From contig JAFSKR010000011.1 of NCBI GenBank assembly GCA_017448825.1, positions 1 through 33,927 of the forward strand: a stretch of 33,927 bases of DNA. Direction: 5' to 3'. The notes below the pieces were generated by a model that searched no databases, was not told where the DNA came from, and worked only from the letters and a program-made list of their open reading frames with translations. Of the stretch, positions 161 to 19,216 are shown piece after piece. Position numbers and translations under genes: made by a program. Positions within the stretch are counted from its first letter, which is position 1. Each line of letters opens with the position of its first letter. The stretch is from Bacteroidaceae bacterium (GTDB lineage: Bacteria; Bacteroidota; Bacteroidia; Bacteroidales; Bacteroidaceae).

Positions 161-1855
161 TCAAAACTTTCTTTTTTTGACAATTTTTAGGCCATTTGAA
201 AGTGTTTGTCGGTCTATTACTATGCCTTTTTGGACATTATGTACAGGACGTCCACTGACATCAAAGTATTCATGGGCAACCACCCTGACGTTGCTCCCAT
301 TCAAGTTTTCATCTACACATATATTATATATAGAAGACGGAATTTCACCAAAGGTTGCCACACCATCCTTGATTTCTGTATAGACTTGGTTATTAACGGC
401 TCCTCCCACCATGTCTGGAAGAATCCACTCATCATATCCTTTTTGACGGAAAATACAGCTGATGATATAACTACCTTCAGGTGTGTCTGCCGGGATGGAG
501 AATCTGGTAGAGATTGAATTTTTTATATAACTGGAACCGATGGTATTTTCCGTTTCTTGGGTTGTCAAGTTTTTCAGAAGATTGCCATCGAGGTCGAACA
601 GCCCTATACCAAAATACCATGTCTTGCCACTGTACGTCAGGTTCCCAACCTCTGCCAGCATCACCATTTTCTCTTTTCCCAGATTGAGTGAGCCTTTTAG
701 GGAAAACGCGCCCATCACATAAGGTGGAACAGGTGCTGGCACCTTGTCTTCGCCCGTATAATCTGGTTCCAGACCCACGATCATGCTTTGCATTTCAGCA
801 AAACTCGATGAAGCCGTAGCATTGAGAAGGGTGATGTCGAAATAGCCATCACTGCTACCATTCCATCCCCAGTTCACATGCACAAAACCATTCGAGTCGT
901 ACCCATCCAGCAGAAACTGATGACCACCGCTCTCACCTCGACCACTGTACAGCACAGGGCAACCAGCGTCAAGTTCTGCCTTCCACAAAGCATCCCACTC
1001 CGCTTGTGTGGCATAACAATCCCGCCACAGGGATTTAATGGAGGAAGCCTTATAACTGAAGTTCTCATACATGGCTCGGATAATATAATCGCTAATTGTA
1101 CCACTGGAACTGGCACCATACTCCATACGTGTCGCCACACCGCAATCGTAACAGATTTTCGACACTGCAGCGGCTGCCGCCATGTCGGCTTTCAGTTCTT
1201 TCGTCGTGTTAAGCATGATACCCCAGTCATAGGTGCTTTGCGAGAAATCCACCGACAGCGCACCCACCCCCGTCAGACCAGACGCATAAGTTACCTGACC
1301 CGTTCCAGTCTTGGGCCATTCATGGTGCTTCAGGATTTGTGCCAATGCGATGGCGACACAACCAGCAACGCTGCGCTTATTGCCATCCATCGGGCACAAA
1401 GCATTGTAAGGGTCACCTTGACCCCATTGTGTCTGGCATAGCGGTTCCACAACAGGCACCGCTTCCGCTCTTCTTGGTGCGAACTCCACCATCTTGCCTT
1501 CACGTACGTCTGTCACCAGCGCAGCATAAGCATGAAGGAAGTCCACCAAAGCGGGAGCCATGTTGTCGGCAGTTGAAAACTCATTTTGGTCAGAGTAAGC
1601 CACCACAGCAGGCAAGGTGCTCTCACCACTGATGATGGCAAATCCCCCACCCTCCTCACGAGAGAACACATAGTAAGCAGGTGCGCCAACGCCACCACGG
1701 CTCTTTGTTTCCTGTGCATGGGCATCGACATTCATCGTCACCGCATGACCCAACACCTGCTGCGCAGTTTTCCGCGCCTTCTCCATACCGACAGGAGCAG
1801 CGTAACACACTGCTCCTGTCAATATCAAGGTTAATAAGATTAAAGACCTTCTCAT
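161..1855 (-). CDS. Secreted C10-family cysteine protease (streptopain/interpain-like)
   Basis: This 564-residue protein is a predicted secreted papain-like cysteine protease. Residues 1-19 form a signal peptide. Residues about 20-120 resemble the inhibitory Spi/C10 propeptide, including a YYVFSREEGGGFAIISG segment. The catalytic domain follows, with the nucleophile Cys166 in VAGCVAIALAQ, His312 in GGHQFLLDGY, and the family HVNWGWNGSSDGYF motif. The C-terminal region (about 370-564) is a beta-rich extension ending in a YFDVSGRPV...GIVIDRQTL...IVKK module nearly shared with the protease at 14303-16009. The ATG at 1855 was chosen because it opens directly on the signal peptide; upstream in-frame codons overlap the preceding gene and lack one. 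It is the last gene of the left operon, 1 nt after the lipoprotein stop, so it is probably cotranscribed and translationally coupled. Confidence 0.9.
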   Translation of the reverse strand: MRRSLILLTLILTGAVCYAAPVGMEKARKTAQQVLGHAVTMNVDAHAQETKSRGGVGAPAYYVFSREEGGGFAIISGESTLPAVVAYSDQNEFSTADNMAPALVDFLHAYAALVTDVREGKMVEFAPRRAEAVPVVEPLCQTQWGQGDPYNALCPMDGNKRSVAGCVAIALAQILKHHEWPKTGTGQVTYASGLTGVGALSVDFSQSTYDWGIMLNTTKELKADMAAAAAVSKICYDCGVATRMEYGASSSGTISDYIIRAMYENFSYKASSIKSLWRDCYATQAEWDALWKAELDAGCPVLYSGRGESGGHQFLLDGYDSNGFVHVNWGWNGSSDGYFDITLLNATASSSFAEMQSMIVGLEPDYTGEDKVPAPVPPYVMGAFSLKGSLNLGKEKMVMLAEVGNLTYSGKTWYFGIGLFDLDGNLLKNLTTQETENTIGSSYIKNSISTRFSIPADTPEGSYIISCIFRQKGYDEWILPDMVGGAVNNQVYTEIKDGVATFGEIPSSIYNICVDENLNGSNVRVVAHEYFDVSGRPVHNVQKGIVIDRQTLSNGLKIVKKRKF

Positions 1856-1856
1856 C

Positions 1857-2687
1857 TTACTTCTTTTCCAAGCGGAGGTTTCCATTATAGATTTCCCAGA
1901 AGCCCTCATCATCAGCAACGCCAAAGGCATTCTTGATGAGCAAGTTTTCGCCATAGTCCAACACATCGATATAGATGTCGTCGTATCCTTCTGCCACTGA
2001 ATAGTCAGCATCATCCAAACCTATTATGAAGACAGAGCCGTAACCGACCATCTGACCGCCTTCAATAGTGATCGTCTTTTTCTGCCAATCAATCACGCCT
2101 TCATAGTAGTTGTAGCCTTCAGAAGCCACATATCCATAACTTGCGAAATAGGGGTCGAGGTCGTTCACCACACACTTGGTAGAATCTTCATCATCGATTT
2201 CAATCGTCACGCTGAAAGCACGTTCCTCGCCCGTAGCAGCGATTGTCGTACCACTATATGTACCAGCCAAGTGAGCCTTGCCAAACTCAGGCTCGCCTGT
2301 CTCCACTTTCTGTACATCCGAGAAGGCCATCCGATTGTCCTTGGCCACCACGTATGCCTGAATGTAGTAAGTGGTGAGGGGTTGCAACTTCTTAGCCACA
2401 GCCGTGAACTCAGCAGTCACAGCCGATGCTGGCCAATAGGCCGCGTCAGCCATGTCTTCTGAAGAGGCTATGCGCACACCTACCTCAGCAGCCTTTGAAG
2501 CATCGCTCACAGTACCCGAAACAGTCACAGCACTGCTACCTCCATTGGCAGTAGCAATAGCCACCGTAGGGGCCGTACCGACAGCATACTTGCCATCGAT
2601 TTCGTCCTTGTCGTCCATGGTCGAGTTACAGCTCACCAGCGCAAGCGCAACTGCCACAAACGGAAGAAATATCTTATACTTTTTCAT
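1857..2687 (-). CDS. SusE-position surface lipoprotein with Fn3-like domain
   Basis: This 276-residue protein has a lipoprotein signal peptide with lipobox ALVSC and Cys20 as the predicted lipidation site. Asp and Glu follow the Cys closely (STMDDKDE), a pattern compatible with surface export of Bacteroidota lipoproteins. Residues about 38-130 look like a fibronectin-III or Ig-like beta-sandwich (TVSGTVSDASKAAEVGVRI, then LQPLTTYYIQAYVVA). The remaining residues are beta-rich and acidic and belong to no family I can name. It lies between the susD-like gene and the C10 protease gene, the slot usually held by an accessory ligand-binding lipoprotein. By analogy it may capture protein or peptides; this is inference. 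Confidence 0.75.
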   Translation of the reverse strand: MKKYKIFLPFVAVALALVSCNSTMDDKDEIDGKYAVGTAPTVAIATANGGSSAVTVSGTVSDASKAAEVGVRIASSEDMADAAYWPASAVTAEFTAVAKKLQPLTTYYIQAYVVAKDNRMAFSDVQKVETGEPEFGKAHLAGTYSGTTIAATGEERAFSVTIEIDDEDSTKCVVNDLDPYFASYGYVASEGYNYYEGVIDWQKKTITIEGGQMVGYGSVFIIGLDDADYSVAEGYDDIYIDVLDYGENLLIKNAFGVADDEGFWEIYNGNLRLEKK

Positions 2688-2701: not shown

Positions 2702-4198
2702 TTAGTCGTTCTGTTCACTTTCTGAAATTTTTGTATTCTCCTGCATCTCGCGCTGTGGCAACTGATATACCCATTTGGGATCCTGAGCAGGAACTGCAAT
2801 AATGAAGCCAGCCAAATGGTTGGTGCCTTCATAGTCGCGGTCAAAGCCCTTGTTGAGACGGCGCAGGTCGAAGCCAGCGAAACCTTCACCCCACAGTTCT
2901 ATGCGGCGTTGCAAGAGAACATCGTCCAAGCTGACCGTCTGCTTGTTCCAAGAAGGTTGGCGATTCTTCATCAGTTCACCCAACACAGTGGCAGCACCAG
3001 AAGCATCACCCTGACGCACCTTAGCCTCTGCCTCAATCAGATACATCTCAGCAGCACGCATATACACGTAGTCCTCGGTCAACTGCCCGTCAGAACCAAA
3101 CTTCAGGTTGGCGTAGGGCAGCTGTGAACCTACTGTCGGTTGCGAGTCATCGCCATCTGGACCATTGAAGAGGGTCTTGCGCTCGTCGTCATCAGCCATC
3201 TGACTGTAGAGACGTGCATCAATAAGACGTGTAGAGTAACCCAGACCTGCATAGCCAGACTCCAAGCTGGAAATATGAGAGAAGAACGAAGCGTAAGAAG
3301 TAGCTGTCTCCGTGTTGTGGTCGAAGCCCCACATCCATTCAGAGTTCGTGATGTCCATGAAGCCATCATGCAGCTGTGTGGTGCTCATCGGAGCGTAGCC
3401 TTTGCGAGCAGTATTAGCGGCACTGGCAGCCTTGTCCCACTGCTGTGTAAGCAGATAGAAACGTGCCAGCAGACCATTTGCCACATTGGCATCGATGTAG
3501 TTCTTCGAGGGACGCTTATAGCCAGCCTCTGTAAGGTTTTTCACAGCGTTCTCAAGGTCTGCTTGTGCCTGATCCAGCACAGCAGTCACCGTGTTACGAC
3601 CTTTTGCAGCTTCCATTTCCTCTGAACTCTTGCCATCAGCCTCCGTATAGATGAGTGGCACACCTGGGCGATCGCCAGCGATGGCACCATCAGCACCTAT
3701 AGGGTTCTGGAAGAGTTGGATAAGCACCGTGTAAGCCAGACCTCTCACAGCCTGAGCCTGTCCCACGATGGCTTTTTCAGATTCGTTTTGAGGGCCATCG
3801 GGATAGAGGCTGATGAGCTGGTTGGCCTTATCCACCATTGTGTAGAGAATCGTCCAGTGTGAGCGCACACGACGGTAGGTTTCCAAACGGTTGTCCATCT
3901 GATAGTCATAGTTGAACCAGTGGGCAGCCGAGAGCGCAATGTCCTCGCTGCCGAGGTCGGTGGCATGCATGATAGACATATAGCCCCAAGTGTCGTGGGC
4001 ATCGGCATCAATGGGATCCCATTCCACCATCCACGACCAAATACCATTCAAGAACACAGAAGGGTCTTCGGCTGCAATCTCGCCCACCTCATCCTGTCCA
4101 AGGTATCGTGTATAATCTGTGTCGAGGTAGTCGGTACCACAACTTGACAGGGCAAGTACAGCAGCGACTCCTGCAACGATATTCTTAATAGATTTCAT
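2702..4198 (-). CDS. SusD/RagB-family outer-membrane lipoprotein
   Basis: This 498-residue protein has the lipobox ALSSC (Cys20) followed by GTDYLDTDYTRYLGQDEV, typical of SusD/RagB N-termini. Helical TPR-like segments follow (IVGQAQAVRGLAYTVLIQLFQNP, then NVANGLLARFYLLTQQWDKAASAA). Near the C-terminus is the family signature LLQRRIELWGEGFAGFDLRRLNKGF, then a proline-rich WVYQLPQREM segment. SusD proteins form a lid over the SusC channel and deliver ligand. The gene follows the susC-like gene by 29 nt. With a C10 protease in the same operon, peptides are a more likely ligand than glycans, as reported for RagAB of Porphyromonas gingivalis. No glycoside hydrolase or polysaccharide lyase is nearby. 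Confidence 0.93.
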   Translation of the reverse strand: MKSIKNIVAGVAAVLALSSCGTDYLDTDYTRYLGQDEVGEIAAEDPSVFLNGIWSWMVEWDPIDADAHDTWGYMSIMHATDLGSEDIALSAAHWFNYDYQMDNRLETYRRVRSHWTILYTMVDKANQLISLYPDGPQNESEKAIVGQAQAVRGLAYTVLIQLFQNPIGADGAIAGDRPGVPLIYTEADGKSSEEMEAAKGRNTVTAVLDQAQADLENAVKNLTEAGYKRPSKNYIDANVANGLLARFYLLTQQWDKAASAANTARKGYAPMSTTQLHDGFMDITNSEWMWGFDHNTETATSYASFFSHISSLESGYAGLGYSTRLIDARLYSQMADDDERKTLFNGPDGDDSQPTVGSQLPYANLKFGSDGQLTEDYVYMRAAEMYLIEAEAKVRQGDASGAATVLGELMKNRQPSWNKQTVSLDDVLLQRRIELWGEGFAGFDLRRLNKGFDRDYEGTNHLAGFIIAVPAQDPKWVYQLPQREMQENTKISESEQND

Positions 4199-4227: not shown

Positions 4228-7200
4228 TTAGAAAGAGAGGTTGACACCAATTGAATAAGTGCTCAAGGCAGAGTAGCCGTAGCCCGTGAAACCACCGAAT
4301 GCAGCAGAGCCGTCGCCATTCGTGTCGTTCATGCGTGGGTCGAAGCCCTTACGCTTAGAGCGGAGCCAGATGTTGTCGCCCGAGAAATAAACACGTAGCT
4401 TCGAGATGCCTGCACCTGCCAGCAGCGACTTCGGGAATGTGTAGCCAAAGGTGATGTTGCGGAGGCTGAAGTAGTTGGCACGTGTCAGGAAGAAGTCGCT
4501 GGCACCACTGATGGTGTACTGGTCATTGTCCTGATACCTCAGGGCAGGAATCGCCGTGTCAGTGTGGCCTGGTGTCCAGCGGTTGAACATATCTTTGTGG
4601 AAGTTCTCGCCCTGGTCACCTGGGTTCATCAGCCTCATATACTGGTCATCCATCATCCAACCACCCAGCGAGAAGGCTGTAGCGATAGAGAGGTCGAAAC
4701 CCTTAAATTCAACAGACGTAGAAACACCACCTGTGAAGGTTGGCAGCGAGCTCTTGCCTGTACGACGACGTGAAGCGTCAGAACTGCTATTCACGATGTA
4801 GCGAGCCTCTCCCGTCTTCGCGTTATACTCCTCATAGCCAGCCTTGGTATCAGCATCGAGGGCATCCCACTCTGCCTGTGTGTACTCATCGTAAGCGTTG
4901 TACATCGTCTTACCAGTTTCAGGATCTGCGCCGAGGTACTCATAGAGATACCAGTCGTAGAGCGAACCGCCGATGCTGCGCCAGTAGTAACCAGATTGAT
5001 AGCCGTCAGGATAAAGTGTCTTGTCCTGCTTGGAGGCAGGCAGCTTGGTCAACTTATTCTTGTAGTGTGTGCCGTTCAACGAGATGTTCCACTTCAGGTC
5101 GCGGGTCTTGATGACATCGGCACTCACCGTGAACTCGATACCCGTGTTCTTCATGTCCATCTCGTTGCGATAGATACCATTGGGCGTACCCTCAGATGGA
5201 GCCAATGGAGAATAGTAGAGCATATCACGTGTGTCCTTGATGAAGAAGTCGAAATCCACCGAGAAGCGGTCAAGGAGACGGGCTTCAAAACCGAGGTTGA
5301 AGTTGCGGCTCTTTTCCCACTTCAAGTCCTTGTTACCGCGGTTCACCTTCGTGAAGGCTGCTTCACCATCTACACGCTCAACTCTGTAAAGGTCTGTGTA
5401 GTTGTGGTAGTAGCCCACGTTATCGTTACCCTGCGTACCATAGCTGGCTTTCAGTTTCAAGTCGTTGATGGCAGTGATGTCCTTCATCCAAGGCTCTTCC
5501 TTGATGCGCCATGCACCACCAATCGCCCAGAACGTACCCCAACGGTTGCCGCTGGCAAAACGTGAGCTACCGTCACGACGCACACTGGCTGTGAAGTAGT
5601 AGCGATCCTTATAATCATATTCACCCTTCATGAAGACACCTTCGAGGGCATATTCCCATGAATAGCTGTTCAGACCCTGATAAACCGTAGCGTTGGAGAA
5701 GTCAGAGTTAGTTTTGTCGGCAAAGTTAGTCATGTGACCATACAGATACTTATAAGCATCCTTCTTGTTCTCATGACCCAGCAACACGTGCACCTTGTGG
5801 TCGCCATACGTCTGGTTCCAGTCAATCAGCTGGTTGGCGTTCAACGCCTGACGACGGGTGGCATACTTATAGCCACGACCACCGTAGGCAGCAGCATCGC
5901 CACCAATCGGTGTCATGAAGTCCGTCTGGTTCAAGTTGAAGAGGTCGTAAGCCAAGTTGCCCGTCACCTTGAAGCCGTAGGGCAGCTTCACCTCAATGTA
6001 GCCACGCGAAGAGAGGTTATCAATCAGCGTCTTGTGCTCTCCTGCCTCGGCAGCCGCCCAAGGGTTCTGCTCTGAAGCGTAAGGACGCTGGTACTCGGTA
6101 CCGAAGTCGTACTTGCCACCTGCATTGTTGAGGGCTGGATTACCATCGGCATCGTAGAAGTAGATAGGATAGATGGGGGCGATGTTCTGCGAGAACGAGA
6201 ACAAGTTGGAATAGTTGGTGCCCTCATCGTCGTTGTAACGATCCTGTTCCGTGCGAGCGTAAGCAATGTTACCGCCCACCTTGATGAAATCGTTAATCTT
6301 CTGATCCACCTTCACGCGACCGCTGTAGCGCTCGAAGCCCGAACCGACCACGTAACCCTTGTCGTGCAGATAACCAAACGAAGCGTATGCCTGCGTATTC
6401 TCAGAACCGCCAGAGATACCCACGTTATACTCCTGACGCACCTTCGTCTTGAAGGGGTCTTTCAGCCACTTGTCGCCCCACTTCTTCTGCTTGGCATTGG
6501 GATTCAGCTGACCATTTGCATCCACGATGGCATTGTCAGCCACACCCTTGAAGCTATTGTAGCCCACGATGTCGATAAGGTGCTGAGAAGCATACTCACC
6601 TGCACCAGCATAACCCATCTGAGGCACCAGCATATTGCGGTAAGACTCCCACATCATCTCATACCACTCGCCATCGTCCTCAATCACGTCGTAGGCACTC
6701 ACACCACGCGTGTTCACACCCACGCGAGCGTTGAAGTCGATGCGAGCCTTGCCACGACCACCAGCTTTCGTGGTAATCATGATGACACCGTTAGAACCAC
6801 GTGCACCATACATAGAGTTGGCGGCAGCATCCTTCAACACGGTCAGCGAAGCAATATCCTGTGGATTGATAGAGTTCAAGCTACCTTCGTAAGGCACACC
6901 ATCCATCACGATAAGTGGCTCCTGGCTCGAAGAAATCGAACCAATACCACGGATGATGATAGCGGCCTGAGCACCTGGCGTATTCGAGTAAGAGGAGAGC
7001 TGCAAGCCAGCCACCGCACCTTCGAGGGCACGCTCAATGCTGGACACCTGCACCTTCTCTATCTCCTCACCCTTCACCGTCGTGGCAGCACCCGTGAACG
7101 ATGCCTTCGACTGGGTGCCGTATGCCACCACAATTTGCTCGTTCAGGTTTTGGGCATCGCTGTCCATATAAATCTTCATGTTAGGTTTGATAGCCACCTC

Positions 7201-7449
7201 CTTCGTCACCATACCGATGTAGGAGACCACGAGGTGCTTAGCAGAACTGGGGACATTGTTGATGGTAAAGCGTCCATTCACATCGGTAGCGGCACCGATG
7301 CCCGTGGAACCCGCCACAACTACAGAGGCCCCAATCACAGGTTCGCCCGTCTCGCTTTCGATGACAACGCCTGTCACCTTCTGCTGGGCGAAAGCCATGC
7401 TGACTGTCATCAGACAGACAGCAAGCAGCGACCATAATCTTTTTTCCAT
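4228..7449 (-). CDS. SusC/RagA-family TonB-dependent outer-membrane transporter
   Basis: This 1073-residue protein has a 21-residue signal peptide, then a carboxypeptidase-D-like domain (about 22-100, with GEPVIGASVVVAGSTGIGAA). The plug domain follows (about 105-230, with VVAYGTQSKASFTGA, IIIRGIGSI, LIVMDGVPYEG and VLKDAAANSMYGARGSNGV), and the remainder is a 22-strand-type barrel ending in a hydrophobic aromatic terminus (YSIGVNLSF). It imports the ligand captured by its SusD partner, energised by TonB/ExbBD. It is the first gene of the left operon. Its leader, start codon and signal-peptide codons are part of the 175-nt inverted repeat shared with the paralogue at 8086. Past the plug the two receptors diverge strongly, so they probably take different substrates. 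Confidence 0.95.
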   Translation of the reverse strand: MEKRLWSLLAVCLMTVSMAFAQQKVTGVVIESETGEPVIGASVVVAGSTGIGAATDVNGRFTINNVPSSAKHLVVSYIGMVTKEVAIKPNMKIYMDSDAQNLNEQIVVAYGTQSKASFTGAATTVKGEEIEKVQVSSIERALEGAVAGLQLSSYSNTPGAQAAIIIRGIGSISSSQEPLIVMDGVPYEGSLNSINPQDIASLTVLKDAAANSMYGARGSNGVIMITTKAGGRGKARIDFNARVGVNTRGVSAYDVIEDDGEWYEMMWESYRNMLVPQMGYAGAGEYASQHLIDIVGYNSFKGVADNAIVDANGQLNPNAKQKKWGDKWLKDPFKTKVRQEYNVGISGGSENTQAYASFGYLHDKGYVVGSGFERYSGRVKVDQKINDFIKVGGNIAYARTEQDRYNDDEGTNYSNLFSFSQNIAPIYPIYFYDADGNPALNNAGGKYDFGTEYQRPYASEQNPWAAAEAGEHKTLIDNLSSRGYIEVKLPYGFKVTGNLAYDLFNLNQTDFMTPIGGDAAAYGGRGYKYATRRQALNANQLIDWNQTYGDHKVHVLLGHENKKDAYKYLYGHMTNFADKTNSDFSNATVYQGLNSYSWEYALEGVFMKGEYDYKDRYYFTASVRRDGSSRFASGNRWGTFWAIGGAWRIKEEPWMKDITAINDLKLKASYGTQGNDNVGYYHNYTDLYRVERVDGEAAFTKVNRGNKDLKWEKSRNFNLGFEARLLDRFSVDFDFFIKDTRDMLYYSPLAPSEGTPNGIYRNEMDMKNTGIEFTVSADVIKTRDLKWNISLNGTHYKNKLTKLPASKQDKTLYPDGYQSGYYWRSIGGSLYDWYLYEYLGADPETGKTMYNAYDEYTQAEWDALDADTKAGYEEYNAKTGEARYIVNSSSDASRRRTGKSSLPTFTGGVSTSVEFKGFDLSIATAFSLGGWMMDDQYMRLMNPGDQGENFHKDMFNRWTPGHTDTAIPALRYQDNDQYTISGASDFFLTRANYFSLRNITFGYTFPKSLLAGAGISKLRVYFSGDNIWLRSKRKGFDPRMNDTNGDGSAAFGGFTGYGYSALSTYSIGVNLSF

Positions 7450-7556
7450 TCTTTGAATTAAATTAGTTAATAATATAAAGTTTGATTTTGTCTCTAATCG
7501 TCTGTACGTGCACCAATACTGGATGGTTTGTGCATCATTTCTGGCATGATACCCGC
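7382..7556 (-). repeat. Left arm of 175-nt inverted repeat spanning the susC start
   Basis: The minus strand of this stretch aligns without gaps to the plus strand of 7979-8153. By eye I count 10 mismatches in 175 nt, about 94% identity. The core 7394-7498 matches 8037-8141 perfectly over 105 nt. Each arm contains the last part of the leader, the ATG and the signal-peptide codons. The perfect match includes synonymous positions, so it reflects recent duplication, gene conversion or recombination, not protein-level conservation alone. Confidence 0.93.
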
Positions 7557-7571
7557 CCCATCTTATTATTT

Positions 7572-7591
7572 AACATAATGCATCTTATACG
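7572..7591 (-). repeat. 20-nt leader element, left inverted copy
   Basis: The minus strand reads CGTATAAGATGCATTATGTT, an exact match to the plus strand at 7916-7935. The flanks are not conserved, and the distance to the 175-nt arm differs on the two sides (15 nt here, 43 nt on the right). The element is therefore an independently conserved block. It contains the palindrome ATGCAT. For the left operon it lies within the predicted leader RNA. Confidence 0.85.
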
Positions 7592-7714
7592 TCCACATTT
7601 CAGTCTCTTTCTTGCTATTCTTTGTTTCTTTCTACTACCATATTCCTCTCTTGCTATTCATTTTTAACTCCTCTGACATCAACACAAAAAGAACACAAAA
7701 AGCACAATTGGCTG

Positions 7715-7722
7715 CAAATATA
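7715..7722 (-). promoter_or_regulatory. -7 box of the left susC operon promoter
   Basis: The minus strand reads TATATTTG followed by CAGCC, a full match to TAnnTTTG in the context typical of Bacteroidota start sites. No good TTTG lies 19-20 nt upstream; only TTTTTATG-like sequence occurs there. This fits a promoter that needs an activator or another sigma factor. The start would be near 7711, giving a leader of about 260 nt. The box lies inside the segment bounded by the inverted repeats. Confidence 0.55.
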
Positions 7723-7844
7723 ACACTTTTTTACTAAATTTTTCATAAAAAGCACTCTTTTTGTCACTATTTTTATAAAAAAGTTAAAAAAAGTCTGTTT
7801 TTGGGAGGAATTGACTAACAATAGCACTTCTTCCCACCATAGGC

Positions 7845-7901
7845 ATCAAGGCTGACACATTTAAGTATTTGTTTGCAATATTTAAGTGCTCCAGCCTTGA
7901 T
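7845..7901. promoter_or_regulatory. Inverted repeat enclosing phased direct repeats (candidate operator)
   Basis: ATCAAGGCTG (7845-7854) and CAGCCTTGAT (7892-7901) form a perfect 10-bp inverted repeat. Inside the 37-nt gap are two exact copies of ATTTAAGT (7859-7866 and 7880-7887) 21 bp apart, which is two helical turns. The layout suits a dimeric DNA-binding regulator with flanking half-sites, or a cruciform/RNA hairpin. It lies close to where a rightward promoter is expected. No regulator is identified for it. Confidence 0.45.
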
Positions 7902-7915
7902 TTTTGAGATGTGCT

Positions 7916-7935
7916 CGTATAAGATGCATTATGTT
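7916..7935 (+). repeat. 20-nt leader element, right inverted copy
   Basis: This is an exact copy of the element at 7572-7591 in opposite orientation, each facing its own susC gene. The right copy continues as TTTAC, giving TATGTTTA, a near match to the -7 box (last base A instead of G). It could therefore contribute to a rightward promoter. Confidence 0.85.
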
Positions 7936-7978
7936 TACTTGGAGGGCATCATTCCTATATATATAAATAATGTGTAGA

Positions 7979-8153
7979 GCGGGTGTCACACCGAAAATGA
8001 TGCACAAACCATCCAGTATTGATGCACGCACAGACAATTAGAGACAAAATCAAACTTTATATTATTAACTAATTTAATTCAAAGAATGGAAAAAAGATTA
8101 TGGTCGCTGCTTGCTGTCTGTCTGATGACAGTCAGCATGGCATTTGCCCAGCA
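7979..8153 (+). repeat. Right arm of 175-nt inverted repeat spanning the susC start
   Basis: This is the partner of 7382-7556. It covers the last 107 nt of the right leader and the first 68 nt of the gene at 8086. Mismatches cluster at the outer leader end and just after the signal-peptide codons, while 8037-8141 is perfect. Two of the leader mismatches lie in a TGCAC...GTGCA-like stem (intact on the left, weakened on the right), so leader folding may differ slightly. Confidence 0.93.
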
Positions 8154-11100
8154 TTCGGTTTCCGGCAAGGTGATCGACAAAAGCACGGGCGAACCAGTAA
8201 TCGGCGCTTCGGTGCTTGTAAAGGGCACGACGATAGGCGCCGCTACAGACTTGGATGGTAAGTTCACCATCAACAATGTGCCCCAACATGGAGCGGTTCT
8301 GCAAGTAACATACGTGGGTATGCTCCCCACAGAAGTGGCCGCCAAGAATGGCATCCGCATCCTCATGGAGCCATCAGAGAAGTCGATTGACGAAGTGATG
8401 GTGGTGGCTTACGGTACGATGAAGAAGTCATCGTTCACGGGTTCTGCCGCTGAGGTGAAGGCTGAGGACATCGAAAACCACATTGCCACCAACGTGACCA
8501 GCGCATTGGCCGCCACAACTGCAGGTGTGCAGATGACGAGCAACAACGGTGACCCCGCCAGCGAAGGCCAGGCCATCCTCATCCGTGGTATCAGCTCCAT
8601 CTATGCCAGCAGAGAGCCTCTCATCATTCTCGACGGTATGCCCTACGACGGTGTGCTCTCCAACATCAACCCACAGGACGTGGAATCGATGACCGTGCTG
8701 AAGGACGCTGCCGCCAGTGCCATTTACGGTGCGCGCGGTGCCAATGGTGTCATCCTCATCAACACCAAGAAGGGTCGCCCACAAGACGCTGAGATTCACT
8801 TCGATGCCAAGTGGGGTTCAAACTCTCGCTGCGTGCCTCAGTATGACGTGATTGACGACCCTGCCGAATACTATGAGACCGCTTACCGTCAGCTCTACAA
8901 CGACTACGTGTACAACGGCTACTCACAGGCTTACGCTTACCGCATGGCCAACGCCCGTCTGCTCGACGAGAACAACGGCGGTCTGGGTTACCTTGTTTAC
9001 ACGCTGCCTGAAGGCGAAAACCTCATTGGTACAAACTTCAAGCTCAACCCTAACGCCACCCTCGGCTACAGCGATGGCCAGTACTACTACACCCCAGACG
9101 ACTGGTACAAGGAGACCATCCACAACTCGTTCCGTCAGGAGTACAACCTCTCCATCAGCGGTGCTAACGACCGCTTCAACTACTATGCCAGCGTGGGCTT
9201 CCTCGACCAGAACGGTATCGTTGACCAGTCGGGCTACAAGCGCTACACTGGCCACTCCAACGTGGACTATCAAGTGAAGAAGTGGTTCAAGGTGGGTGCA
9301 CAGCTGAACTTCACCCACGCTGACTTCGAGCAGCCAGACTACTCGACCACCAGCTGGGCAAGCTCGGGCAACCTCTTCTACCTGGTGAACAACATGGCTC
9401 CCATCTATCCACTCTATGTGCGCAACGCCGATGGAAGCATCGCTCACGACGCTAATGGCTTGACGAAATACGACTCTGGCCAGACCAACCAGCACCGTCC
9501 CAGCACGGTGGGTAACCCTGTGCGTGACAACCAGTATGACCGCAGCCAGAACTACCGCGATATGTTCACGGGCAACTGGTCTGCCATCTTCACGCCTATC
9601 GACGGTCTGACCCTCACGGCTCGCATCGGTGTGAACTCCGACAACCGCCGCCGCAACAACCTCTACTCTGCTTTTGGCAATGCCGCTTCGACCGATGGTG
9701 CTACCGACGTGACGAGCGTGCGCCAATTCTCGGTGAACAACCAGTATCTGGGCAACTACGCGACCGACTTTGGCACCGACGAGACTCACAACCTTGATGT
9801 TCTCGTGGGTTACGAGCAGTACAAGTATAAGTACCAGTATTCTTACACCTACCGCACGAACCTGTACGACCCACTGATTGGCGAACTCGGAAACGCCTAC
9901 GGCGACAAGAGTCTGATTGATGCCAACTCCTACACCAACAACTACATGATTGAAGGTATCTTCGGTCGTGCTCAGTACGACTACAAGGAGAAGTACTTCG
10001 TCAGCACGTCTCTCCGTCGCGACGCTTCTTCTCGCTTTGCCAAAGGCCATCGCTGGGGTTCGTTCTACTCTTTCGGCGCTGCCTGGAACATTGCCAAGGA
10101 AGACTTCATGAAGGAATACACTTGGATTGACCTGCTGAAGCTGAAGGCATCCTACGGTGAGCAGGGTAACGACAACCTTTCTGAAGCCGATTATCCATAC
10201 TTCCCCTACGCCAACATCTACGGCATCACTTACGACCCAGACAACAATGCTTACTCAAAGACTCTCAAGCAGCTGGGCAACGATGACCTGACTTGGGAGA
10301 AGAACCGCAACTTCAACGTGGGTGTTGACTTCGGATTCTGGAAGAACCGTCTCTCGGGTAGCCTCGAGTTCTTCACTCGCACCACTTCCGATATGCTGTT
10401 CTACCTGAACCAGCCGGCCTCTTCTGGCTATGGCTCTCTGCAAAAGCCCATCAACGTCGGTTCTGTGCGCAACCTTGGCTTCGAGCTGCAGTTGAACGGC
10501 ACACCTATCCGCCAGAAGAACTTCACTTGGGATATCAACTTCAACCTCACCCACTATAAGAACACCATCCGCTCGCTCCATGAGAGTGTGGCAGAAGATG
10601 GCATCAAGGGGTCTTACTATATCCGCCGCATCGGTGGTTCACTCTATCAGGCTTACGTCTATAAGTATGCTGGCGTATATAGTGCCAACAACTATCCGGA
10701 AGGTTCCACTTACGACGCTTCCAACGATGGCCGTGCGCTCTACTACTATCAGAAGACCAACACGAAGCTGGATGACGCTGGCAACCCTGTGCTCGATGCT
10801 GACGGCAACCCCGTGACCTACGAGACCAAGGAGAAGACCCTCAACTTCTCTGACGCTACCCAGTATGACGACGGTGACATCCTGCCAAAGCTCCAGGGCG
10901 GTATCGGCATGAGTTTCAAGGTGTACGATTTCGACCTCAGCTTCCAGTGTGGCTGGCAGCTCGGTGGACGCTTCTACGATGCTACCTATCAGTCTCTCAT
11001 GCACACCAGCGACCAGAGCATCGGTTCTGCATGGCACAAGGACGCTCTGAAGGCCTGGAGTGTAGATAACCAAGGCTCCAACATCCCACGTCTGGAGAAC

Positions 11101-11394
11101 GACTACTCGGTGGGTCAGTCAGCAGTTGACCGCTTCTACACCAGCTCCGACTACTTCTCTCTGAGCAACTTCACCGTTGGCTACACCCTGCCTAAGCTCA
11201 TCACCAGCCGCATCGGCATCGAGTCGCTGCGCGTCTATGTGGCAGGCGAGAATATGTTTGTGCTCTCAGCCCGCAAGGGTCTCGACCCACGCTGGAGCCT
11301 CGGTCTCGGTAGCTACACAGGCGGCACAGGCTATGCTTCGGGTAACTATTCCGCCATGCGCACTGTCACCGCTGGTATCAGTCTCTCATTCTAA
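8086..11394 (+). CDS. SusC/RagA-family TonB-dependent outer-membrane transporter
   Basis: This 1102-residue paralogue of the receptor at 4228-7449 has the same signal peptide. A carboxypeptidase-D-like domain follows (about 22-100, with GEPVIGASVLVKGTTIGAA), then the plug (VVAYGTMKKSSFTGSAAEV, ILIRGISSI, LIILDGMPYDG, VLKDAAASAIYGARGANGV). A large barrel ends in RTVTAGISLSF. It should form a TonB-driven import channel with the SusD-like lipoprotein 27 nt downstream. Identity to the left receptor is total in the signal peptide, clear in the N-terminal and plug domains, and low in much of the barrel, which suggests a different cargo. The ATG is fixed by the signal peptide and by the perfect match to the left gene's start. 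Confidence 0.95.
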   Translation: MEKRLWSLLAVCLMTVSMAFAQHSVSGKVIDKSTGEPVIGASVLVKGTTIGAATDLDGKFTINNVPQHGAVLQVTYVGMLPTEVAAKNGIRILMEPSEKSIDEVMVVAYGTMKKSSFTGSAAEVKAEDIENHIATNVTSALAATTAGVQMTSNNGDPASEGQAILIRGISSIYASREPLIILDGMPYDGVLSNINPQDVESMTVLKDAAASAIYGARGANGVILINTKKGRPQDAEIHFDAKWGSNSRCVPQYDVIDDPAEYYETAYRQLYNDYVYNGYSQAYAYRMANARLLDENNGGLGYLVYTLPEGENLIGTNFKLNPNATLGYSDGQYYYTPDDWYKETIHNSFRQEYNLSISGANDRFNYYASVGFLDQNGIVDQSGYKRYTGHSNVDYQVKKWFKVGAQLNFTHADFEQPDYSTTSWASSGNLFYLVNNMAPIYPLYVRNADGSIAHDANGLTKYDSGQTNQHRPSTVGNPVRDNQYDRSQNYRDMFTGNWSAIFTPIDGLTLTARIGVNSDNRRRNNLYSAFGNAASTDGATDVTSVRQFSVNNQYLGNYATDFGTDETHNLDVLVGYEQYKYKYQYSYTYRTNLYDPLIGELGNAYGDKSLIDANSYTNNYMIEGIFGRAQYDYKEKYFVSTSLRRDASSRFAKGHRWGSFYSFGAAWNIAKEDFMKEYTWIDLLKLKASYGEQGNDNLSEADYPYFPYANIYGITYDPDNNAYSKTLKQLGNDDLTWEKNRNFNVGVDFGFWKNRLSGSLEFFTRTTSDMLFYLNQPASSGYGSLQKPINVGSVRNLGFELQLNGTPIRQKNFTWDINFNLTHYKNTIRSLHESVAEDGIKGSYYIRRIGGSLYQAYVYKYAGVYSANNYPEGSTYDASNDGRALYYYQKTNTKLDDAGNPVLDADGNPVTYETKEKTLNFSDATQYDDGDILPKLQGGIGMSFKVYDFDLSFQCGWQLGGRFYDATYQSLMHTSDQSIGSAWHKDALKAWSVDNQGSNIPRLENDYSVGQSAVDRFYTSSDYFSLSNFTVGYTLPKLITSRIGIESLRVYVAGENMFVLSARKGLDPRWSLGLGSYTGGTGYASGNYSAMRTVTAGISLSF

Positions 11395-11421: not shown

Positions 11422-13086
11422 ATGAAACTCTATAAATTATCTATTTTGGCTCTCGCTGCGCTCGGCTTTGCTGCCTGCAACGACATCAACGACGTGGAGC
11501 CAAAAGGTGACGGCATCAGTGCCGCTCAGGTGACAGAGACTGTAGGTCTTATCCCCAGCCGTTCCGAGGCCGACTTCACCGGTATGTTCTCCATGATGGG
11601 AGAGCCTTATTTCTATTCACCCAGCAGCACCCGTGCCGACGACTTCGGCTTCATCATGGCAGCCATCTCTCAGGATGCTGAAGGTCCCGACCTTCAGTTC
11701 CCCAACTCAAGTTACAACTGGTTCTCTGTGTGTGGCGAACTTTCTTCACGCACTCCCACCTACGCCAACCCTCTTATCCGCTACTCCACTCCTTATTCCC
11801 AGCTGAAGATAGCCAACGACCTGTTGCGCAACTACATCACCAGCGAGGAACAGCTGGACGATGCCGCCTTTGTGGAGGGTCTGGACTCTACAGCTGTCAA
11901 CACTATCGCCCAGTCGCTGGCCATCCGTGCCTTTGACTACCTTTCGCTGGCTCCTTACTTCCAGTTCTCCTACGCTGCCGGTGCGCAGGACGAGCCATGT
12001 GTGCCCATCGTGACACTCTCTACAGTTGATGCCACCCACAACCCACGCGCTACCGTGAAGGAAGTGTATGACCTCATCATCAAAGACCTCACTTGGGCCA
12101 TCAACCATCTGGATGTCAACCGCAACACCAAGGCACAAATCAACGTGAACGTGGCTTACGGTCTGCGCGCCCGTGCTTACCTCGCTACAGAACAATGGGC
12201 AGAGGCTGCTGCCGACGCTGAAAAGGCTGCCGATGGTTACACGCCTGCCAGCATCGACGAAGTTTCCACTCCTTCGTTCTACGACATCAACGACCACAAC
12301 TGGATTTGGGGTTACGACATGACGGCCTCCATAGCCAACGGTCGCTACGCCACTTCTCCCTCGTGGATTGGTTCGTTCTCCAAGCAGGCATACGCTGCCG
12401 GTGTAGGCTGCTACGCCTTCATCAACAACCTGCTCTATAACAAGATTCCAGAGACTGACGTGCGCAAAGGCTGGTGGGTGGACGAGAACCTCCACTCTCC
12501 GCTGCTCGCCACGGTTGACTGGGACGGTGTGACTGGCGACGACATCTCCACCCTTCAGGTGGCCGACGAGAAGGAGCCTTACATCGCCTACACCAACGTG
12601 AAGTTCGGCGTTCCCTCCATGCCCAGCCCCACCTCTCTGAACGATTCCGACTGGCCCTTCATGCGCGTGGAGGAAATGCTCCTCATCCAGGCTGAAGGCT
12701 ATGCCAAGAGCGGCAACGAGAGCAAGGCCAAGGATATTCTGACCGACTTCGTGAAGAACTACCGCGACCCCTCCTACAGCGTTCCTTCTGTGACCGTCCG
12801 CTCGCTGGCCGACGAAATCTGGTTCCAGCGTCGTGTGGAGCTGTGGGGCGAAGGTTTCGGCTGGAACGACATGATGCGCCAGAACAAGCCGCTCGTTCGT
12901 TTCCACGACGACAACTCCAACTACCCCGAGGCATACAAGTTCAACCTTCCTGCCAAGGATCCCTGGATGTTGATGCGCTTCCCACAAAGAGAGACCAACA
13001 CCAACTTCGACATCGTGAACAACACTGGTGGCGTTGCTCCTACCACAGGCATCAACCCATCGCTTCGTGACGGTGTGACAGACTAA
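11422..13086 (+). CDS. SusD/RagB-family outer-membrane lipoprotein
   Basis: This 554-residue protein has a lipoprotein signal ending in GFAAC (Cys19), followed by NDINDVEPKGDG. SusD-type helical segments appear in the middle (AQSLAIRAFDYLSLAPYFQF, then INVNVAYGLRARAYLATEQW). The C-terminal signature is IWFQRRVELWGEGFGWNDMMRQNKP, followed by a WMLMRFPQRETN segment that parallels the left paralogue. It is the expected surface lid of the SusC-like channel encoded just upstream. The chain is 56 residues longer than the left SusD-like protein, and similarity between them is confined mainly to the family signatures, consistent with different ligands. Confidence 0.93.
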   Translation: MKLYKLSILALAALGFAACNDINDVEPKGDGISAAQVTETVGLIPSRSEADFTGMFSMMGEPYFYSPSSTRADDFGFIMAAISQDAEGPDLQFPNSSYNWFSVCGELSSRTPTYANPLIRYSTPYSQLKIANDLLRNYITSEEQLDDAAFVEGLDSTAVNTIAQSLAIRAFDYLSLAPYFQFSYAAGAQDEPCVPIVTLSTVDATHNPRATVKEVYDLIIKDLTWAINHLDVNRNTKAQINVNVAYGLRARAYLATEQWAEAAADAEKAADGYTPASIDEVSTPSFYDINDHNWIWGYDMTASIANGRYATSPSWIGSFSKQAYAAGVGCYAFINNLLYNKIPETDVRKGWWVDENLHSPLLATVDWDGVTGDDISTLQVADEKEPYIAYTNVKFGVPSMPSPTSLNDSDWPFMRVEEMLLIQAEGYAKSGNESKAKDILTDFVKNYRDPSYSVPSVTVRSLADEIWFQRRVELWGEGFGWNDMMRQNKPLVRFHDDNSNYPEAYKFNLPAKDPWMLMRFPQRETNTNFDIVNNTGGVAPTTGINPSLRDGVTD

Positions 13087-13114: not shown

Positions 13115-14173
13115 ATGAAACTGACTAAGATATTTTTGCTCGCTGGCATCGCTGCCGCAGGTGTGCTTGCATCTTGTAGCGACGATGACTATGAGAAAGG
13201 TGCGGTTGCCACAGGCAATCAGCTCCAGACGGTGACATTCGGCCCGAACAATATCTATACAGCCGAACTCGACCCTGCTGACCCAACCACTCACACCATC
13301 ACGCTCTACCGTGATTCTGCCTACATGGCAGAGGCAGCATCTGTGCCATTGAAGGTGATTACCAACGACGACAGCGTGTTTGTAGCTCCTGCTACCGCAG
13401 AGTTTGCTGCTGGCAGTGCCGAGACGACCATCACCGTCACGTTCAACGCCGCCGAGGTGGGTGTGCCCTACAACTTTGAAATTGCGATTGACGACTCCTA
13501 CGTGCATCCTTACAGCTCGGCCACCTATAGCCGATACGCCATCACGAACTTGCAGCGTGTGAAGTGGAACAGCCTCGGCCTTGTCGAGTTCTACGACACC
13601 ATGATTTGCGGCAGGTCTGACGGCAGCACTTGGGGCTACTACGTTGAGTTGCAGCAGCGTGACGGTACCAACATGTTCCGTCTCATCGAGCCATACGCCG
13701 GTGCCAACGCCAATGAGGACGACTGGGGTGGCGGACTCTATCAGTCAGACGAGAAAATCTTCTTCACCATCCTTAATGCAGGTGATGTAGATGACGATGG
13801 CGATGAATACCTGTATGTCACCTTCGACACTTGGGCCACTGGCTACTGGTATCAGGATGCTTATATGGTTTACGCCTTCTTGCCATCAGACCTGTCTGCC
13901 TCTATCGCAGATGATGATGAACTCTCTGTTTACTACCCAGATTATGGCCAGATTATTCTGACTCCTTACTACTACATCCCAGGTTTGGGCGGTTTCGGTG
14001 AATACTCCGTTTATATCATCATTCCAGAGGAGACTCCTGCTGATGCTGTGGCTGGCGGCATCGTCCCTGAGGCATCGGCCAAGAGTCGTGGCAACATCCG
14101 CGAGGCAACTCCAGTGAATGCCATTCGTCCCTCAGACAGAAGCCTTCTCGACTATAAATGGAAACGTTACTAA
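13115..14173 (+). CDS. SusE-position surface lipoprotein, beta-sandwich type
   Basis: This 352-residue protein has lipobox VLASC (Cys21) followed at once by SDDDYEKG, an acidic stretch compatible with surface export. Residues about 35-115 form a repeating strand pattern (TITLYRDSAYM, VPLKVITNDDSVFVAPATAEF, ETTITVTFNAAEVGVPYNFEI) resembling the Calx-beta or DUF4843-like domains of Bacteroidota surface lipoproteins. The remainder is rich in Asp, Tyr and Trp, with a DVDDDGDEYLY segment that could bind calcium. It occupies the slot matching the lipoprotein at 1857-2687 but is not obviously homologous to it. The gene ends 20 nt before a strong terminator, so it closes the susC-led transcript. Confidence 0.7.
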   Translation: MKLTKIFLLAGIAAAGVLASCSDDDYEKGAVATGNQLQTVTFGPNNIYTAELDPADPTTHTITLYRDSAYMAEAASVPLKVITNDDSVFVAPATAEFAAGSAETTITVTFNAAEVGVPYNFEIAIDDSYVHPYSSATYSRYAITNLQRVKWNSLGLVEFYDTMICGRSDGSTWGYYVELQQRDGTNMFRLIEPYAGANANEDDWGGGLYQSDEKIFFTILNAGDVDDDGDEYLYVTFDTWATGYWYQDAYMVYAFLPSDLSASIADDDELSVYYPDYGQIILTPYYYIPGLGGFGEYSVYIIIPEETPADAVAGGIVPEASAKSRGNIREATPVNAIRPSDRSLLDYKWKRY

Positions 14174-14302: not shown

Positions 14303-16009
14303 ATGAAAATGAAAGTTTTTTTACTGATTGTTGGCATACTCTGTGCGAATGCCGCGATAGCCAGTCCCGTGGGCTTCGGCAAGGCAGTGTCGAAGGCCAA
14401 GCGGGTGCTGGGAAAGGAAGTGGTTTCTACCGAAAACCTCACAGCAGAAGTCCGTGCGCGGATGGGAGAAGCGTCAGCCTCACCCTCCTTCTATGTGTTC
14501 AACGCCGAAGACGGCCAAGGGTTCGTCATCATCAGTGGTGAAGACCAAATGCCCGAAGTGTTGGCATACTCCCACACGGGTCGCTTCGATGCCACCAATA
14601 TACCTCCAGCACTGGTGAGTATGCTCGACAACTACATGGAGGTGGTGGACGAGGTGCGCAACGGTGAAATGACGGTGGAGGCCTCTCCTCGCCGTGCCGA
14701 AGAAGCAACACCTGTGGTAGGTCCCCTGTGCCGGTCGCAGTGGGGCCAAGACAAGCCTTACAACACGCTCTGTCCTTCGAAGGACGGGGAGAAGTGTCCT
14801 GTGGGCTGTGTTGCCACAGCTTTAGCTCAGATTATGTACCACTTCGCTTGGCCCGTGACAGGCACAGGTTCCAATATGTATGCCAGCGGTATCAGCGGTG
14901 TGGGGGTATTGAAATCGAACTTCTACGAGCACACCTACGCATGGGACGTGATGGAGGAGACCACACGCAAAAACCTTGCCTCGGAAGCAGCATCCGCCGC
15001 CGTGGCACAGCTGAGCTACGACTGCGGCATTGCCACACGTATGTCGTATGACCCTGAAGGCAGCGGCACCAACGACGATCTGGCCATGGCAGCCCTCTAC
15101 ACTTACTTTGGCTACCGCGCATCGTCGCTCCGCATCGAACACCGCGCCTGCTACGCCACACAGGAGGAGTGGAACGACCTTGTGAAGTCGGAGCTGAATG
15201 CCAACCGCCCCGTGCTGTATGCGGGCTTTGACTCACGCTACGGTGGTCATGAGTTCATCATCGACGGCTACGACGATGCCGGCTTCTTCCACGTAAACTG
15301 GGGCTGGAACGGCTCATCGGATGCCTACTACTCCATCGTGACGCTCAGTCCGTCGCGCATGAGCATCTCGTACTCACTGGAGCAGTCGATGGTGTGCGGC
15401 ATTGAGCCCGATGAGACGGGCGAGGACAAAACGCCACAACAATTCCGCATCTACATGGAGGATGCCCCCACGATGATTCAAGAAAGCATCAGTCTTGGCC
15501 ATTCTGCCATCCTGACATTAAACAACTTCTTTAATTATAGCCGCACGGCACACACTTGGACACGCGCTGTTGCCCTATACAGCCTTGATGGTGAACAACT
15601 GGCCTTCGTGTCTAACCCTGAAAACAGCAATTGTACCACCCAAATCCTCTCTCTCAATGGATATAGCAGGGCTGACATCAGTTTTGCCATCCCCGAAGAC
15701 ACCCCCGACGGCTACTACTCCCTCCGCGCCGTGTTCCGTCAGGAGGGCTACGACGACTTTATCCTGCCCGACATGGTGGGTGGCTCGGAACTGAACAACC
15801 TGTATGTGCAGGTGAAGGACGGTGTGGCCTACTTCAATGTGGACATCCCCGATGCCATCAACGCGATAGCCACTAACACCAACGTGGTGACACACGACTA
15901 CTATGATGTGTCTGGCAAGAAACTTTCACGTATCACAAAAGGCATCGTCATTGACCGCCAAACACTGCCGAACGGACAACAAATTGTCAAGAAAATTGCG
16001 GTGAAATAA
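14303..16009 (+). CDS. Secreted C10-family cysteine protease (streptopain/interpain-like)
   Basis: This 568-residue paralogue of the protease at 161-1855 has a signal peptide (1-20). Its propeptide-like region (about 21-125) includes PSFYVFNAEDGQGFVIISG. The catalytic domain has Cys169 in PVGCVATALAQ, His316 in YGGHEFIIDGY and the HVNWGWNGSSDAYY motif. The beta-rich C-terminal extension ends in YYDVSGKKL, GIVIDRQTL and IVKK, close to the tail of the left paralogue. That tail may be a sorting or folding module resembling type IX secretion C-terminal domains. The enzyme should degrade extracellular protein to peptides for the adjacent SusCD pair. It has its own promoter and terminator-separated unit, so it could be expressed when the importer operon is not. 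Confidence 0.9.
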   Translation: MKMKVFLLIVGILCANAAIASPVGFGKAVSKAKRVLGKEVVSTENLTAEVRARMGEASASPSFYVFNAEDGQGFVIISGEDQMPEVLAYSHTGRFDATNIPPALVSMLDNYMEVVDEVRNGEMTVEASPRRAEEATPVVGPLCRSQWGQDKPYNTLCPSKDGEKCPVGCVATALAQIMYHFAWPVTGTGSNMYASGISGVGVLKSNFYEHTYAWDVMEETTRKNLASEAASAAVAQLSYDCGIATRMSYDPEGSGTNDDLAMAALYTYFGYRASSLRIEHRACYATQEEWNDLVKSELNANRPVLYAGFDSRYGGHEFIIDGYDDAGFFHVNWGWNGSSDAYYSIVTLSPSRMSISYSLEQSMVCGIEPDETGEDKTPQQFRIYMEDAPTMIQESISLGHSAILTLNNFFNYSRTAHTWTRAVALYSLDGEQLAFVSNPENSNCTTQILSLNGYSRADISFAIPEDTPDGYYSLRAVFRQEGYDDFILPDMVGGSELNNLYVQVKDGVAYFNVDIPDAINAIATNTNVVTHDYYDVSGKKLSRITKGIVIDRQTLPNGQQIVKKIAVK

Positions 16010-16034: not shown

Positions 16035-16385
16035 ATGATACAGCAAGAAGGTTACAAAGCAAAAATAGACGACTTTCTCATCCGAGAAAAACGGTATCGC
16101 GACCCCAAGTTCTCTGCCAACCAATTGGCGGAGATGCTTGGGGTTGCTGATTATAAGTTGTCGAGAATCATGAAAGATGCCTACGGAATGAGTTATTCGG
16201 AGGTAGTACATACCTATCGCATCCAAGAAGCGATGCACCACTTGAAGAACCGAAGGCTGTCTCCCTACACAGTAGATGACATCGGCGAGATGGTGGGCTT
16301 CAAGAATCGACAATCGTTCTTCGATGCATTTAAGCGGATAACTGGCACAACACCTGAGAAATACCGAAAGAGCACCATTCCATGA
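16035..16385 (+). CDS. Small AraC-family DNA-binding regulator
   Basis: This 116-residue protein consists essentially of the AraC-type two-helix-turn-helix domain. The first HTH is in FSANQLAEMLGVADYKLSRIMKDAYGMSYSEVV, a linker carries YRIQEAMHHLKNRR, and the second is in TVDDIGEMVGFKNRQSFFDAFKRITGTTPEKYRK. No ligand-binding, receiver or membrane domain is present, so any signal must act through its amount or a partner. The start codon is set by the homologous N-terminus and by the promoter immediately upstream. It lies between the C10 protease and the dipeptidyl peptidase III genes and is a plausible regulator of either; that link is inferred from position only. Confidence 0.87.
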   Translation: MIQQEGYKAKIDDFLIREKRYRDPKFSANQLAEMLGVADYKLSRIMKDAYGMSYSEVVHTYRIQEAMHHLKNRRLSPYTVDDIGEMVGFKNRQSFFDAFKRITGTTPEKYRKSTIP

Positions 16386-16392
16386 TACCCGC

Positions 16393-16405
16393 AAATCATT
16401 GATTT
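16393..16405. promoter_or_regulatory. Palindrome in the 165-nt gap before the DPP III gene
   Basis: AAATCA-T-TGATTT is a perfect 13-nt palindrome just after the AraC-type stop codon. The rest of the gap (16386-16550) shows only a poor promoter (TATTCTTT around 16420, with TTG 18 nt upstream). The palindrome could be an operator for the neighbouring regulator or chance in A/T-rich DNA. Confidence 0.25.
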
Positions 16406-16550
16406 CAATACGAGGTACTTATTCTTTTCAGATGCGGCATATCATTCAAATCACTACCTGGTATCACCGAATGGTACAAACAGAATGCACCGCATCCCCT
16501 GTCCCGCTCACACAAAAAAGGGATTCCTTACCATAAAACCAATCATAACA

Positions 16551-19191: not shown

Positions 19192-19216
19192 CACCCAGAG
19201 AAAAGCAGTAAATTTG
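19186..19216 (+). promoter_or_regulatory. Promoter of the Fur-family gene
   Basis: TTG (19186-19188) is followed after 20 nt by TAAATTTG (19209-19216), a match to the Bacteroidota consensus. The -33 lies inside the last codons of the preceding gene. The predicted leader is about 20 nt. Confidence 0.6.

Follow-up and report, generated by a model that had tools for sequence, protein, structure and literature searches.

In Bacteroides fragilis, according to the available text of PMC4747536, three master invertases act at distant regions of the genome; the targets of Tsr0667 comprise three SusC/SusD clusters and nine further regions, and the phase variation of SusC/SusD by this invertase is credited there to Nakayama-Imaohji 2009. 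A preliminary description of the locus analysed here had invoked the switching of SusC/D expression by DNA inversion in B. fragilis as a precedent, and that source bears it out. More generally, promoter inversions and SusCD inversions are both common in gut Bacteroidales, as far as the available parts of PMC12632263 and PMC10939037 show.

We analysed a stretch of 33,927 nucleotides (hereafter, the window) from a Bacteroidaceae bacterium, assembly GCA_017448825.1, contig JAFSKR010000011.1. The assembly to which it belongs, G000, is metagenome-assembled (75 contigs, 2.95 Mb, 86% complete). Like the Tsr0667 system, as described in the available text, the locus consists of SusC/SusD clusters that would be switched by inversion, and Tsr0667 acts at many distant places. 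Unlike that system, which comprises shufflon-type multiple inversions at three clusters, the window holds one short segment between two complete operons and no local recombinase. The invertible capsule promoters of B. fragilis (Mpi) and other invertible regions of Bacteroidales provide a second parallel, namely a short promoter segment between inverted repeats and a recombinase acting at a distance (available text of PMC4747536, PMC12632263, PMC3090145 and PMC10939037). Mpi, however, is a serine recombinase, and the capsule promoters switch a locus on or off, whereas here either orientation would serve an operon.

Since SusC/D inversions and promoter inversions are already known, the kind of system is known as well. 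The locus would be a variant of it, marked by one short promoter segment that selects either of two complete divergent operons, by the sites described below, and by the lack of a local recombinase. Among the matches listed, titles and the beginnings of abstracts contained no publication on the locus or the site, most subscription papers lying outside the scope of the search, and SusC receives no mention in the available part of PMC5903667. In our opinion, the segment between the inner sites is likely to be an invertible promoter that chooses between operons 1 and 2 and is flipped by a tyrosine recombinase encoded elsewhere.

The two operons and their shared leaders

Each of the divergent susC genes probably heads an operon encoding SusC, SusD, a predicted lipoprotein, and a C10 peptidase with an I69 pro-domain:

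161..1966, minus strand: C10 peptidase with I69 pro-domain, end of operon 1, frame open from 2014 (Pfam PF01640, PF13734)
1857..2687, minus strand: predicted lipoprotein of operon 1, named by eye (open reading frame; adjoins SusD1 in relatives too)
2702..4198, minus strand: SusD1 (PF07980, PF14322)
4228..7449, minus strand: SusC1, TonB-dependent SusC/RagA transporter of operon 1 (PF13715, PF07715, PF00593; TIGR04056)
7382..7556, no strand: left long arm, with signal-peptide codons, ATG and 5' UTR common to susC2 (repeat search, alignment)
7979..8153, no strand: right long arm, with 5' UTR, ATG and signal-peptide codons common to susC1 (repeat search, alignment)
8086..11394, plus strand: SusC2, operon 2 (PF13715, PF07715, PF00593; TIGR04056)
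11422..13086, plus strand: SusD2 (PF07980, PF14322)
13115..14173, plus strand: predicted lipoprotein of operon 2, named by eye (open reading frame)
14303..16009, plus strand: C10 peptidase with I69 pro-domain, operon 2 (PF01640, PF13734)
16035..16385, plus strand: single-domain AraC-type HTH protein, after operon 2, with an M49 peptidase (PF12833; synteny)

Neither predicted lipoprotein (1857..2687, 13115..14173) has a Pfam match at E 0.001. Both SusC proteins score above the TIGR04056 cut-off, and the best solved-structure match of each is RagA (6sli). Because of this match and of the C10 and M49 peptidases nearby, both SusCD systems are predicted to import peptides. The AraC-type/M49 pair (window 16035-21103, loci L035-L097) marks a variable site in the genus, upstream of which different SusCD operons or other genes are found, depending on the genome; in 10 of the 20 fetched genus stretches the contig ends less than 2 kb upstream of the M49 gene.

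The inverted repeat claimed in the preliminary description is real: its arms are gapless and identical at 165 of 175 positions (94.3%), with a perfect run of 105 nt starting at 7394. The 422-nt spacer (7557-7978) stands as described, and so does the course of the arms through the 5' UTR, the ATG (7449 on the minus strand, 8086 on the plus strand) and the signal-peptide codons of both genes. Ungapped extension to 7303-7556 / 7979-8232 yields 254 nt at 84% identity, and the N-termini of SusC1 and SusC2 both read MEKRLWSLLAVCLMTVSMAFAQ. A DNA search of G000, in which 40 of 58 first-look candidates were scored, reported arm copies at six places, all of them at this locus, and no further copy elsewhere. 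The locus has two operons and, with the same 40 of 58 candidates scored, no further arm copy, whereas a SusC/SusD shufflon would have more than two interchangeable cassettes.

Comparison with orthologues bears on the origin of the arms. In G000, the susC1 and susC2 leaders are identical at 49 of the 50 nt preceding the ATG and at 64 of 66 nt of the signal peptide, vs 483 of 743 in codons 43-300; for the two leaders of G014, a close relative, the figures are 42/45, 66/66 and 473/740. The orthologous susC1 genes of G000 and G035 agree at 37 of 46 positions in the UTR, 61 of 66 in the signal peptide and 651 of 774 in codons 43-300. Leaders are therefore nearer to each other within a genome than to their susC1 orthologues (P 0.006 for the UTR contrast), while codons 43-300 show the opposite. 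Judged from these alignments, the leaders appear to have been homogenised by recombination, separately in the G000 and G014 lineages. Gene conversion of a common leader, offered in the preliminary description as a passive alternative, explains the long arms in this way, and accounts for them without any inversion.

An inner repeat around a single recognisable promoter

The spacer contains the following features:

7572..7589, minus strand: left inner site TATAA-GATGCA-TTATGTT, candidate recombinase crossover (repeat and motif search)
7712..7733, minus strand: promoter TAAAAAAGTGTTATATTTGCAG facing susC1, with TAnnTTTG box TATATTTG at 7722-7715 (motif scan and PWM)
7845..7901, plus strand: hairpin with a T run at 7901-7905, facing susC2, possible terminator (RNA fold)
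7918..7935, plus strand: right inner site TATAA-GATGCA-TTATGTT, inverted copy of the left one, candidate crossover (repeat and motif search)

The two sites belong to a second inverted repeat, absent from the preliminary description (7572-7602 / 7905-7935; 90% over 31 nt). Its exact block of 20 nt is the longest exact inverted pair in the spacer, vs a maximum of 12 nt in 60 first-order Markov simulations. The left and right sites are identical over 18 nt, and YATAA-N6-TTATGTT has exactly two exact matches in the 2.95 Mb of G000, namely this inverted pair. The motif was also sought in 12 further leaders of the genus: 11 have no copy within 350 nt, and the remaining one has a match with two mismatches that overlaps its promoter. 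It should be noted that the bare motif has 68 matches over 45 genomes vs 74 for a reversed control (counts alone compared); as these numbers are alike, the evidence rests on the inverted pairing with equal centres.

The promoter box TAnnTTTG is a B. fragilis consensus, credited to Bayley 2000 in the available text of PMC3090145. Within 500 nt it occurs once toward susC1 and not at all toward susC2. This count was rejected as proof, since about 45% of gap simulations are also one-sided, and it is the weight matrix that carries the argument. Built from the leaders of six relatives, which were picked by eye for having the box, and with the window and G014 left out, the matrix scores 21.7 toward susC1 vs at best 6.1 toward susC2 in the window (the maximum of 1000 simulations being 19.2), and 27.0 vs 6.5 in G014. 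For leader-type loci, i.e., those with a divergent susC pair sharing a leader, the probability that at least six of seven would be one-sided for TAnnTTTG is 0.037. A sigma-70-type scan was uninformative (6 found vs 3.7 expected). In the sequenced orientation susC2 has no recognisable promoter, though it could have one of another type.

The region 7835-7925 folds at -25.8 kcal/mol (z -3.2; 1 of 200 shuffles is as good), which suggests that the hairpin at 7845-7901 may act as a terminator; a terminator consensus scan found none. In G014, a hairpin scan restricted to even lengths detects a T-tailed hairpin facing susC2; in the window the same scan detects another hairpin, without a T tail, the 57-nt hairpin lying outside its reach. 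Short inverted repeats that flank a promoter upstream of a gene, the mark of an inverton, are present in the window, where the PWM match lies between the copies of the 20-nt exact block.

Close relatives

G014, a separate metagenome-assembled genome, has the same divergent layout and the same AraC-type and M49 peptidase neighbours. It carries its own inner pair, with AGAACAGGCATTATGTT in both copies, and these are the only exact copies in that genome. The G014 sites have two mismatches to YATAA-N6-TTATGTT, and a match this good or better turns up in 8% of simulated 350-nt stretches. Only GCATTATGTT of the inner block is conserved between G000 and G014, and both copies change together. No other closely related genome is assembled across this layout, and the promoter of G014 points the same way as that of the window.

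In a further relative, G023, CATAA-CGGCGG-TTATGTT forms 23-bp perfect inverted pairs on contigs C68 (314 nt enclosed) and C80 (264 nt enclosed). Both segments hold TAnnTTTG boxes and adjoin genes for large predicted lipoproteins, with no susC beside them. On C80 the only box points away from the lipoprotein gene, as do two of the three on C68, and genes flanking the opposite end of the segment might also be served by these boxes. Another copy of the sequence, on contig C62, lies upstream of a common-leader susC near a broken contig end. A second susC, with 28 nt before the ATG matching exactly, begins contig C74 inside its leader, so the assembly is broken at the susC locus of G023. Such candidate invertible promoters, bounded by 23-bp perfect repeats and next to the lipoprotein genes (651 and 878 aa), occupy L178:6659-7008 and L179:7458-7757 in G023; the first residues of these two large predicted lipoproteins look alike.

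Loci with a recombinase between the arms

Searches with SusC1 covered contigs of named genomes (26 loci) and 399 genomes of the family (88 with a match). Outside the genus, 5' regions were retrieved for 40 of the best matches; together with earlier loci, 63 oriented regions were examined, some of them duplicates (L100 = L063, L101 = L061, L104 = L065). Leader-type divergent pairs are found in the window, G014, L058, L059, L064, L065, L115 and, broken, in G023. A tyrosine recombinase gene lies between the arms of the divergent susC pairs of L058, L059, L062, L064 and L065; this includes four of the seven assembled leader-type loci (L058, L059, L064, L065), the window, G014 and L115 having no recombinase there. 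At L073:9046-9660 the recombinase between the arms of a divergent susC pair is a serine, not a tyrosine, recombinase.

L058, L059, L064 and L065 resemble the window in their divergent full-length susC pair with a common leader, and the first three also in carrying TAnnTTTG on one side only and a short inverted block further inside. Unlike the window, all four have the recombinase between the arms and other block sequences. Six of the seven assembled leader-type loci have, between promoter and leader, a block of 17 nt or more whose two copies are identical. The block of L064 merges into an almost unbroken stretch of identity; L065 lacks it and has TAnnTTTG on both sides.

The preliminary description had proposed that orientation be compared across related genomes. 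With one genome compared per species, G000 and G014 share one orientation. The recombinase segment is reversed in L059 vs L064, next to a collinear SusC1 operon (5713 nt, 92%), and the homologous TTAACTTTG promoter stands before SusC1 in one of these loci and before the partner in the other. The left partners differ and another operon has moved, so this inversion sits within a wider rearrangement.

A second class, the coding-repeat loci (e.g., L062, L098, L111, L112, L129), shares the divergent SusC pair with the window; these loci hold a tyrosine recombinase and occur in two orientations across species. They differ from the window in that the arm edge falls within susC (around codon 67) at an AGTTC-N5-RRACT-like site, which leaves only one gene with a promoter and signal peptide. 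An arm edge at or within a few nt of such a site is seen in 15 of the 18 loci shown, and AGTTC-N5-GAACT is a known motif of B. fragilis. Twelve coding-repeat loci have one truncated and one complete divergent susC with a tyrosine recombinase between them, and in all 12 (6 + 6, P 0.002, uncorrected for kinship) the strand of the recombinase matches which susC is complete. This count excludes L105 and L130 (both susC full length), L108 (no SusC partner found), L071 and L072 (no recombinase between the genes) and L073 (serine recombinase, both genes without a start).

Candidate recombinases

A profile search of the window's contig gave no PF00589 or PF00239 match. The recombinase gene carried by four of the seven assembled leader-type loci and by the 12 coding-repeat loci counted is absent here, though none is required where an invertase acts at a distance. 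The 86% complete G000 assembly has four PF00589 genes and no PF00239 gene. One of the four, a tyrosine recombinase of 393 aa on contig C11 (L138:5285-6466), is 60% identical to a recombinase on G014 contig C49 and 40% identical to one on G023 contig C71. The C11 and C49 genes both lie near an alike-looking transporter-like gene (judged by eye; one gene apart in G000). Matches to the C11 protein at E 1e-60 occur in 10 of 45 genomes: all 3 with the dual operon and 7 of the remaining 42 (P 0.008, post hoc). On the basis of its distribution and its orthologue in G014, the C11 recombinase is only a candidate for the enzyme acting on the inner sites. An inverted-word search revealed no recognisable site pair near the C11, C71 or C49 recombinases. 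A single genome, G043 (contigs C53, C55, C60), holds four genes related to the C11 recombinase, of which two contain an in-frame stop.

Proposed switch and alternative explanations

The operons stand at inverted repeats with a promoter whose direction would decide between them, the pattern of a SusC/SusD inversion locus, with the change in expression being inferred. In the sequenced orientation, the single convincing promoter (7733-7712, minus strand) would transcribe operon 1 (susC1-susD1-lipoprotein-C10 protease). Site-specific exchange between the two TATAA-GATGCA-TTATGTT sites (cores 7579-7584 and 7923-7928), catalysed by a tyrosine recombinase encoded at another locus, would invert about 340 nt. 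This would place the promoter box at 7785-7792 on the plus strand, 294 nt before the ATG of susC2, and lead to expression of operon 2. Neither susC would give up its leader, made up of 5' UTR, ATG and signal peptide, with gene conversion keeping the leaders identical and so giving rise to the long arms. The repeats, the sites, the promoter match, the homogenised leaders and the architecture of relatives are direct observations; from them we infer inversion in this strain, the switching of expression by it, and the recombinase involved.

The preliminary description proposed an invertible promoter segment with crossover in the arms. Comparison with relatives supports the segment well, but the crossover is likelier to lie elsewhere. 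Inversion through the 175-nt arms, whether by homologous (RecA-type) recombination or by a site-specific exchange, is rather unlikely. A perfect identity of 105 nt is ample for homologous recombination, and exact runs reach the first codons in all eight leader-type pairs compared; recombination in the arms, however, explains neither the isolated 20-nt identical inner block nor the 23-bp inverted pairs found at two places in G023 with no susC beside them. To judge from the sites themselves, the crossover is likely the inner repeat YATAA-N6-TTATGTT (7572-7589 / 7918-7935) rather than the arms, because this repeat directly brackets the promoter, because its copies are identical within a genome though the site differs between species, and because sites of this kind also flank other predicted promoters, as perfect inverted pairs, in G023.

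A static locus, in which a duplicated leader was homogenised by gene conversion and the inner block is an operator or 5' UTR element, is unlikely. It would fit the clear homogenisation, the single orientation of G000 and G014, and the lack of a local recombinase, but not the conservation of only GCATTATGTT with both copies changing together, the absence of the inner motif from 11 of 12 other leaders, the use of the same kind of site in promoter-flanking inverted pairs of G023, or a susC2 with no recognisable promoter. Several relatives have a recombinase between the arms and the window has none, as would be expected if a switch descended from such loci had decayed and was now locked with susC1 on and susC2 silent. 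Such decay is improbable in view of the full-length open reading frames of susC2, susD2 and the second C10 gene, of inner sites still identical over 18 nt, and of leaders homogenised separately in both lineages. Finally, the contig comes from a 75-contig, 86% complete assembly, and a chimeric head-to-head join could mimic a divergent locus; yet G014, assembled separately, has the same layout beside the same AraC-type and M49 genes, which makes an artefact highly improbable.

A fuller version of the preferred switch between inner sites is put forward tentatively, as a possibility a little short of probable: a two-way switch in which a chromosomal tyrosine recombinase acts in trans at YATAA-N6-TTATG sites to flip the invertible promoter of about 340 nt, so that either of two complete SusCD and C10-protease operons is expressed, gene conversion keeps the leaders interchangeable, and sites of this family operate at several surface loci of this rumen genus. 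If so, a clonal population would spread its bets over two surface importers, each with a C10 protease of its own, with consequences for nutrient capture and perhaps also for the surface met by phages. The site sequence provides a testable handle on the recombinase and on further switches in rumen Bacteroidales. It also hints at the relationship between SusC/D inversion loci that carry a recombinase and a compact form that depends on one encoded at a distance.

Other features of the window

Two further repeats were observed. At 25049-25142, a palindromic element with 35-nt arms and 24 nt between them lies inside the open frame 24191-25312, possibly as an in-frame insertion in a peptidase-like gene (judged by eye). 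In the region 25457-32216, a 141-nt direct repeat with a GLPGLI motif is common to four genes (25965, 29615, 30955, 31828), which lie near a large outer-membrane-like gene (26368-29097) and are followed by a sigma-factor-like gene (both named by eye).
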